From Leptolyngbya iicbica LK (GTDB taxonomy: Bacteria > Cyanobacteriota > Cyanobacteriia > Phormidesmidales > Phormidesmidaceae), in the NCBI RefSeq assembly GCF_004212215.1, contig NZ_QVFV01000004.1:124001-188000 (forward strand): a DNA stretch of 64,000 nucleotides. The letters are read 5' to 3'. Under the pieces are notes generated by a model. It made no database searches and was not told where the DNA came from. It saw nothing but the letters and a program-made list of their open reading frames with translations. Both the position numbers and the translations under genes were made by a program. Numbering within the stretch: position 1 is the stretch's first letter; every line of letters begins with the position of its first letter. Below, in pieces: positions 12,872 to 14,498 of the stretch.

Positions 12872-13816
12872 CTAGGCGTCACTTGATGACTCTACGACCT
12901 CTTCTTGATGACCCATGGCCATTTGCAGCACCATTGGCCGACCTCCCGTTTCATGATATTTATCGGCCCAGGCTCGCAAGATTTCGTCGAGTTCGGCGAT
13001 CGCTGCGGGTAATTTCTCGGGGGGGATATCCAGTTCCTCCAAAATGCGGACGGTGTCGGCTTTGCTCTCCGACCATTCGCGCATCATGCGGAAATAGCGA
13101 GCCGTGTCTTCCAGCATGATCAGAGTCCGCTCTTCTTGATCAGCGGGGGAATAAGACGGTCGCATTAAAGCGTAGAAAGACATGCCCCAAGGCGAATCTA
13201 GCCGCTGAACGGTGCCGGAATACATCAGCCGCCGTCGAATATGTTCTGCCAGGGCTTCGCTGAGGGGGCTCCGACGATCAACCGGAAAGTCTTCTTGCGA
13301 TCGCTCGTGCAAAAACTCGATCAATTCCATCAATTGGAACGAGTTGATGATTTGCGCATCGGGAATGTCGGTAGGGAGTTTACGTTCCAACAGGCGCTTT
13401 TCATCTGAGGTGAGGCTGGTAGTGGGAAGCCGAAAGGTGCCTGGCTCCCACGGATACTTTTCGAGCCACACGTAAGGAAACTGAATCAAGTAGCGAGGTT
13501 CTTGCGAACCCAGCAGTTTGAGCAAACGACCTTCGGTTAGGGCTTCTTGGAGCTCACCGACGATGGCTTTGACGCGCTTTGGCTCAATGTGGTGTAAATG
13601 ACCCGTCATCCGCAGGTTTTCGCCCTGCTCGACATAGGTCATGTAAATCGCACACTTTGCTGCCGTGGCGGCTGCATCCAAAAACGCTCCGTGGCGATGA
13701 CCCCCAGTGCGCATGGCGCTAAACGCCAAATACAGCAAAATTTGATCGATCGCACTGGGGCCAAGCTGTCGGACTAAATCCATATCGTTGCTAACCGACT
13801 CTAACGCATTAAACAT
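12872..13816 (-). CDS. hetR: HetR, master regulator of heterocyst/filament differentiation
   Basis: 314 residues; the family is usually about 299. Dimeric DNA-binding regulator found in filamentous cyanobacteria including non-heterocystous ones; inhibited by RGSGR peptides of PatS, HetN and PatX. The match is near-continuous, for example [20 protein letters not shown] and [19 protein letters not shown]. With Anabaena numbering shifted by +7, Gly36, Cys48, Ser152 and Ser179 are present as Gly43, Cys55, Ser159 and Ser186. The peptide-binding acidic residues Glu253, Glu254 and Asp270 are kept as Glu260, Glu261 and Asp277 ([15 protein letters not shown]). The extra N-terminal residues come from the ATG at 13816; no start codon lies at the shorter Anabaena position. 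Confidence 0.97.
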
Positions 13817-13874
13817 AACTCGAAACCCAACACTGGCAAGCGATTCAAAGCATAAAAATCGGTAGATAGCCCCT

Positions 13875-13905
13875 GACTCTGGTCCCGCGCTGCGCGGTTA
13901 GAGTC
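13875..13905. promoter_or_regulatory. Imperfect palindrome 60-90 bp upstream of hetR
   Basis: 31-nt interrupted palindrome: outer arms GACTCT (13875-13880) and AGAGTC (13900-13905), inner arms CCGCGC (13885-13890) and GCGCGG (13892-13897). It has no T-run, so it looks more like a dyad operator or mRNA leader hairpin than a terminator. HetR binds palindromic DNA in Anabaena and controls its own gene, so HetR is one possible ligand; this is inference. Confidence 0.4.
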
Positions 13906-13929
13906 GTGTGCACTTTGAATGAGCCGTAT

Positions 13930-13956
13930 TGAGCAACCACGTTGCAGAATTGCTCA
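13930..13956. promoter_or_regulatory. Inverted repeat TGAGCAA-N13-TTGCTCA upstream of hetR
   Basis: Two perfect 7-bp arms at 13930-13936 and 13950-13956 separated by 13 bases, about 115-140 bp upstream of the hetR start. The arm spacing fits two half-sites on nearly the same helix face. Possible operator; the binding protein is unknown. Confidence 0.3.
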
Positions 13957-14150
13957 TCATGCTACTACTCCAAACTGAATTGATGACTCTGATTTTGGCG
14001 GCGGTCACTCTAGTCGTCCATTGGGAGACTCGGGCAATGGGCTAATATCCTCTCCGGAGTTCATGTCACTCGTTGCCGGGATCGGCGATGAGAGGACTGT
14101 TGCCCGCTCACATGGCGGCACGAGCGGCGAGCCTTGGCAAGTTGCTAAGG

Positions 14151-14498
14151 CTAAGCCCACTCTGCTCCATTAGCCGGATACGGCATGACTCGGCCACTGC
14201 CCCGGTAAGCCGTGTCGGGTTCTGTCACGGCGGGCGATCGCCCACTGCCACGATGAGCTAACAGCTCTTCCGGCGTTTGGTGAATCCGTCCGGTGCCGCG
14301 ATAGTCGTAGGTTGCATCGGGGGGCCACTGGGTGGGCACCTGACTGACGACCCGACCGCTGCCGCGATGACTTTCGGGCGATCGCGGATCACTTTCGGCA
14401 CGAGGCGCACTGAAAGTCGGCGAAAAACTCACAGCGCCCAAACAACCTAGCGTCAGACCGGCTAAGCAAAGTTGCGGCAATTTAATAGAAGCAAGCAT
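14151..14498 (-). CDS. patX: PatX-like secreted precursor with four RG[S/T]GR motifs
   Basis: 115 residues. The N-terminus is a signal peptide (basic start, hydrophobic core LCLAGLTLGCLGAVSF, likely cut near FSAPRA at residues 29-33). The rest holds four copies of the HetR-inhibiting pentapeptide, each after an aromatic or His: HRGSGR (44-49), YRGTGR (66-71), HRGSGR (82-87), YRGSGR (98-103), at intervals of 22, 16 and 16 residues. RGSGR is the active part of PatS and HetN, and the PatX family is known as the HetR-associated RG[S/T]GR protein of filamentous cyanobacteria. Its place directly upstream of hetR on the same strand fits. Export and cleavage to small peptides that bind HetR in neighbouring cells is inferred from the family. 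Confidence 0.85.
   Translation of the reverse strand: MLASIKLPQLCLAGLTLGCLGAVSFSPTFSAPRAESDPRSPESHRGSGRVVSQVPTQWPPDATYDYRGTGRIHQTPEELLAHRGSGRSPAVTEPDTAYRGSGRVMPYPANGAEWA

Follow-up and report, generated by a model that had tools for sequence, protein, structure and literature searches.

What might a filamentous cyanobacterium gain from a small, apparently secreted protein that carries four RG[ST]GR motifs and is encoded directly upstream of hetR? This question is raised by the window (the whole stretch of 64,000 nucleotides from Leptolyngbya iicbica LK that we analyzed), and the nearest published guide to an answer is the PatX of Nostoc, which is exported and cut by PatP, and whose HRGTGR peptide binds and inactivates HetR (PMC12756182). 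Excision of the PatX peptide is only now being worked out, and the exact cut sites are unsettled even in Nostoc (PMC12756182). We argue below that the window PatX is probably a polyprotein from which several hexapeptides that inhibit HetR are cut out in the periplasm.

A four-motif precursor encoded next to hetR

The patX ORF (window positions 14151..14498, (-) strand; orthologues lie 5′ of hetR in the order) is situated 334 bp upstream of hetR on the same strand and encodes a protein of 115 residues, MLASIKLPQLCLAGLTLGCLGAVSFSPTFSAPRAESDPRSPESHRGSGRVVSQ...EWA. Its hydrophobic N-terminus, residues 1 to about 31 (14406..14498, (-)), is a predicted Sec signal peptide, a purely hydropathy-based assignment with the maximum (mean 1.94 over a 15-residue window) at residues 10–24. 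A candidate lipobox (LGC) within this segment was ruled out, as its Cys is not kept among relatives. The four motifs, identified by sequence and by conservation across eight sequences, are HRGSGR (copy 1, residues 44–49, 14352..14369), YRGTGR (copy 2, residues 66–71, 14286..14303), HRGSGR (copy 3, residues 82–87, 14238..14255) and YRGSGR (copy 4, residues 98–103, 14190..14207), all on the (-) strand, such that the leading residues run H, Y, H, Y, the second motif is RGTGR, and start-to-start spacings are 22, 16 and 16 residues. None of 200,000 shuffles of the PatX protein contained two or more motifs, and a six-frame scan of the whole window found no RG[ST]GR besides these four. The earlier note had described just such a protein, with a signal peptide and four hexapeptides spaced 16–22 residues apart between residues 44 and 103, upstream of hetR; ORF coordinates and residue positions bear this out, and hydropathy confirms the hydrophobic N-terminus.

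The presumed target of the peptides, hetR (12872..13816, (-), 314 aa), is identified by the NCBIfam equivalog NF009718 (535.4 bits against a cut-off of 489), by domains PF03574 and PF18460 (the hood, 1.8e-38) and by matches to the solved HetR structures 3qod, 4hri and 4ynl. Its peptide-binding hood domain spans residues 226–303 (12908..13141, (-)), as placed by PF18460 and the residue map. The six HetR residues that contact PatS6 in the solved complex (PMC4649674) are R223, E253, E254, D256, D270 and D278 in Anabaena; window HetR numbering runs seven higher, and all six are present, as Arg230, Glu260, Glu261, Asp263, Asp277 and Asp285 (only Glu260, Glu261 and Asp277 had been pointed out before). 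Among the canonical HetRs, Glu253, Asp270 and Arg223 (Anabaena numbering, as hereafter) are invariant in 138/138. Glu254, the HetR residue that holds the N-terminus of the peptide, is replaced by Ser or Ala in L122, L123, L141, L142, L146 and L276, which belong to the two lineages whose PatX reach the highest copy numbers. Where Glu254 has changed, the PatX leading residue has often changed as well, from His to Tyr in family f15 (L262, L273, L276) and to Glu or Arg in f34 (L275, L280, L283), which hints that the two co-evolve although published work finds no side-chain contact.

The same genome encodes a HetR paralogue (G000:C7:79404-80300, locus L082; 48% identical), of a type widespread in the order, which keeps Arg223, Glu253, Asp256, Asp270 and Asp278 while Val replaces Glu254, a substitution seen in 8 of the 11 HetR paralogues read. 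None of the paralogues examined has a PatX-type ORF as neighbor, and a search for HetR in viral contigs found none. Near the patX–hetR pair lies a microbial rhodopsin gene (window 11536-12417, (+); PF01036, 148 bits).

Assignment as PatX

The earlier note had assigned the precursor to the PatX type, and position, motif and promoter all support this. Elhai and Khudyakov are said to have placed, in 2018, the DIF1 promoter motif no more than 69 nt upstream of patX. In the window, a DIF1-like hexamer, TCCTGA (14553..14558, (-)), sits 60 nt 5′ of the patX ATG; it is one base off the Anabaena DIF1 motif TCCGGA, the exact form of which is absent from the promoter position of this gene. TCCTGA also precedes patX across the order (including that of Leptolyngbya BL0902) and stands upstream of 61/62 candidate patX ORFs in other families, mostly near −60. 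An exact TCCGGA at 14053-14058, in the patX–hetR interval, resembles a further DIF1 promoter; we treat it as chance because it is not conserved in relatives.

By contrast with these features, the NCBIfam model for PatX (NF047413) scores the window protein at 18.7 bits, below its curated cut-off of 30. However, the same model gives the published BL0902 PatX 11.0 bits and one full-length single-motif PatX 27.3 bits, and we therefore regard it as narrow rather than as a defining feature. Judged by its location, motif and promoter hexamer, then, the window ORF is a PatX.

A second patX-like gene of the same genome is not beside hetR (G000:C1:214143-214310, (-), locus L174, also L084). It encodes 56 aa with a hydrophobic N-terminus and YRGTGRRQIL near the end, and has an exact DIF1 TCCGGA 57 nt 5′ of its ATG. 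Relatives with an upstream TCCGGA occur in its own genus, in G009, G048–G050 and G060, and in other families (G066, G090, G117, G223), and in G004–G006 and G060 the relative has lost the first Arg of the motif.

Most PatX of the order carry several motifs

We searched for hetR in 65 genomes of the GTDB order to which the window belongs, all from one family; 62 gave a match, and in these we read the region upstream of the canonical hetR; the patX counts that follow cover hetR-adjacent ORFs and, the genomes being related, do not equal independent events. Multi-motif PatX proteins account for 51 of the 55 usable cases, with two motifs in 5, three in 28, four in 12, five in 4 and nine in 2. Outside the order, we surveyed 80 hetR loci from 15 families; a secreted RG[ST]GR ORF adjoins hetR at 61 of them (11 families), and in 60 of these it has a single motif. 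The lone exception (G225, locus L276) carries eight copies, led by Y, Y, Y, H, Y, H, Y and H. Mapped on the HetR tree, the single/multi state switches at least four times. Such were the copy numbers among PatX homologues near hetR that the earlier note had proposed to count, and they revise its view of the design as less familiar, which holds against Anabaena but not for this order. As read from the predicted proteins, the multi-motif design is not peculiar to the window genome: the H-Y-H-Y four-motif form with RGTGR second recurs in Halomicronema sp. CCY15110, Leptolyngbya sp. SIOISBB and Oscillatoria sp. CS-180. The two nine-copy proteins (G014, G019) consist of an array of units 12 residues long, the first seven D-led and the last two Y-led. 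Between relatives, start-to-start spacing ranges from about 10 to 35 residues, and it is near-regular in some genera. Copy number evidently grows by in-frame tandem duplication, of which the near-identical DNA of neighboring repeat units in L149 and L123 gives recent instances.

These proteins bear on published absences. PatX was reported to be missing from 12% of genomes with hetR (for example Leptolyngbya cf. ectocarpi) on the basis of profile searches at trusted cut-offs (PMC12756182). All seven multi-motif PatX that we tested from the order (the window's included), and the eight-copy protein as well, score below the NF047413 cut-off, so that some of the absences may be false; PatX would then be undercounted in surveys based on the current profile, although the profile behind the published search is not necessarily NF047413.

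Set against characterized systems, the window PatX resembles that of Leptolyngbya BL0902 (GFS31_32390; G039 in our set), which belongs to the same order, lies directly 5′ of hetR and shares TCCTGA and several motifs, but has three copies (D, I, Y) instead of four (H, Y, H, Y). With Nostoc/Anabaena PCC 7120 PatX (HRGTGR, PatP-cut) it shares a small exported precursor, as predicted here, RG[ST]GR with a preceding His, a DIF1-type promoter and HetR as putative target; that protein has one motif. At eight Nostocaceae-like loci (f32), unlike in the window, patX is never adjacent to hetR (0/8). Anabaena PatS, of 13–17 aa with a single C-terminal motif, yields an RGSGR peptide bound by the hood of HetR and has only the motif in common with window PatX, and HetN, which shares RGSGR and HetR inhibition, is a different protein with one internal motif.

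Every copy is conserved, together with its leading residue

We compared selection on the parts of PatX in eight sequences (the six genomes of the window's own genus, plus G060 and G009). In the linkers, 75% of aligned pairs carry different amino acids. Within the motifs, 1.3% of pairs change amino acid, all at the S/T position of copy 2 (Thr in 7/8 sequences, Ser in G009), whereas 61% of codon pairs differ synonymously. The same pattern appears in each copy taken separately; copy 1, for instance, has no amino-acid change and 85 synonymous differences in 140 codon pairs. Near-constancy in the face of such synonymous divergence implies that all four copies have long been kept by selection, and on this codon evidence the purifying selection is strong. 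The earlier note had held that motifs varying within an otherwise conserved frame would count against its reading; we find the opposite.

The residue immediately before the motif is as constant as the motif itself, being invariant in 4/4 columns versus 2/87 other columns (4/4 versus 9/87 when the comparison is confined to the six genomes of the genus). For the residue that follows the motif, the count is 0/4. An equivalent invariance in a D-F-Y group was discarded as circular, this group having been picked by that very pattern. Order-wide, the first copy is led by H, D, E or N and the last by Y, W or F in 49/51 multi-motif PatX, a count that represents far fewer independent events because the genomes are related. 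The outer flanks also recur in multi-motif proteins, with A, S or D before the leading residue and I, L or V after the motif in 142/158 contexts, conservation that may come partly from shared descent of tandem copies. Single-motif PatX proteins have I, L or V after the motif in 9/54; in most of them the protein stops at the motif or Arg comes next.

The solved PatS6–HetR complex helps to interpret these features: both the free N-terminus of the hexapeptide and its C-terminal carboxylate are used (the latter lies next to Arg223), and extension of the N-terminus beyond six residues weakens affinity. HetR is not touched by the leading side chain, the substitution of which leaves affinity unchanged (PMC4649674). 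Since HetR is indifferent to this side chain, its strict conservation points elsewhere, to cutting, uptake, stability or two classes of signal.

A model for multi-peptide signaling

We propose that the window, from a filamentous cyanobacterium, holds a patX–hetR module whose PatX would serve as a multi-peptide precursor. In this model, patX is expressed from its DIF1-type promoter and PatX exported by its signal peptide, whereupon periplasmic cutting on both sides of each copy would free as many as four hexapeptides from one precursor (two of HRGSGR, one each of YRGTGR and YRGSGR). These would re-enter the same or neighboring cells and occupy the hood cleft of HetR, which would then drop off DNA; extra copies would provide more inhibitor per precursor, and the invariant first residue of each peptide would most likely serve cutting, transport or stability. 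We know of no demonstration that peptides are released from several sites of one PatX. The anatomy of the precursor, its conservation, the order-wide expansion of copy number and the intact HetR contacts are established here, and the polyprotein proposed in the earlier note gains comparative support from the two to nine copies in the order, the selection on every copy and the recurrent flanks. Cutting itself, like export and the inhibition of HetR, is put forward by analogy with Nostoc PatX/PatP and with PatS6–HetR. As regards PatP, Alr1666 appears as PBP10 in PMC7766704; a Peptidase_S13 search for a PatP orthologue gave several proteins, none assignable as PatP.

Duplicates may instead have been kept for dosage only, with tandem copies supplying more inhibitor and the leading residue mattering just for cutting. 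The recent duplications in L149 and L123 favor such an explanation, as does the absence of Glu254 from HetR in both highest-copy lineages (g6 and G225): its loss from Anabaena HetR weakens affinity from 12 to 91 nM (PMC4649674), which would reward more peptide. Compensation by dosage is thereby suggested, yet the association of Glu254 loss with copy number rests on two lineages, too few independent cases for significance, and dosage alone leaves the fixed order of leading residues unexplained. We consider it possible but on the whole doubtful that dosage is the entire account.

That fixed order is what two functional classes would explain, polar-led (H/D/E/N) and aromatic-led (Y/W/F) copies being different signals made in a fixed ratio from one precursor and differing in cutting, transport, lifetime or receptor preference. 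H-Y-H-Y is invariant in the six genus genomes, G060 and G009 despite their differing linkers, and a single transition separates His from Tyr codons, which means that unchanged leading residues need selection; the polar-first, aromatic-last order spans the multi-motif PatX of the order, albeit with the relatedness noted above, and the independent eight-copy protein mixes Y and H, alternating toward its C-terminal end. Against this stand the indifference of HetR to the leading side chain and the existence of Y-led single-motif PatX. A division of the classes between two HetRs was also entertained and rejected, given that the paralogues examined lack a neighboring PatX-type ORF and that genus g6, with both classes in 4–9 copies, has a single HetR; a second HetR therefore does not explain the classes. 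The two peptide classes suggested in the earlier note thus hold up as a conserved sequence pattern, though their function draws no support, inasmuch as published work finds no effect of the first residue on HetR binding and the second HetR does not track the pattern. We rate two functional classes as unlikely, and the fuller proposition, that PatX of the order is a multi-peptide prohormone delivering polar-led and aromatic-led RG[ST]GR hexapeptides as two distinct conserved signals at a fixed ratio, as marginally less likely still.

PatX might also act mainly outside the HetR pathway, for example on the envelope or on filament breakage. Deletion of patX in BL0902, whose PatX has three motifs, changed many genes, and the mutant transcriptomes were judged to show effects largely, or basically, independent of HetR, in passages of PMC11298460 that make no mention of motif number. 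That patX keeps its place 5′ of hetR throughout the order and in most of the other families, and that Glu253, Asp270 and Arg223 are completely invariant in canonical HetRs, nevertheless makes a predominantly HetR-independent role improbable; that multi-motif PatX inhibits HetR we infer by analogy. An uncut chain whose several hooks bind HetR or another partner is least credible of all: the near-regular spacing in some genera would suit it, but spacing varies widely between relatives, the complex uses both peptide termini, and signal-less Nostoc PatX failed to bind HetR in a two-hybrid test (PMC12756182).

Implications for filaments without heterocysts

The role of PatX and HetR in filaments without heterocysts is stated as an open question in PMC11298460. 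The window organism may fix nitrogen, as it bears a nifH above the family cut-off (G000:C2:1515851-1516672). Were the two-signal prohormone real, it would give non-heterocystous filaments a two-signal control of HetR. Under the polyprotein model that we prefer, a precursor with two to nine selected copies would amount to a natural experiment, in which aligned copies could indicate both the cut sites and the purpose of the leading residue, and BL0902, with its three-copy PatX and a genetic system, is a tractable strain in which to pursue them.
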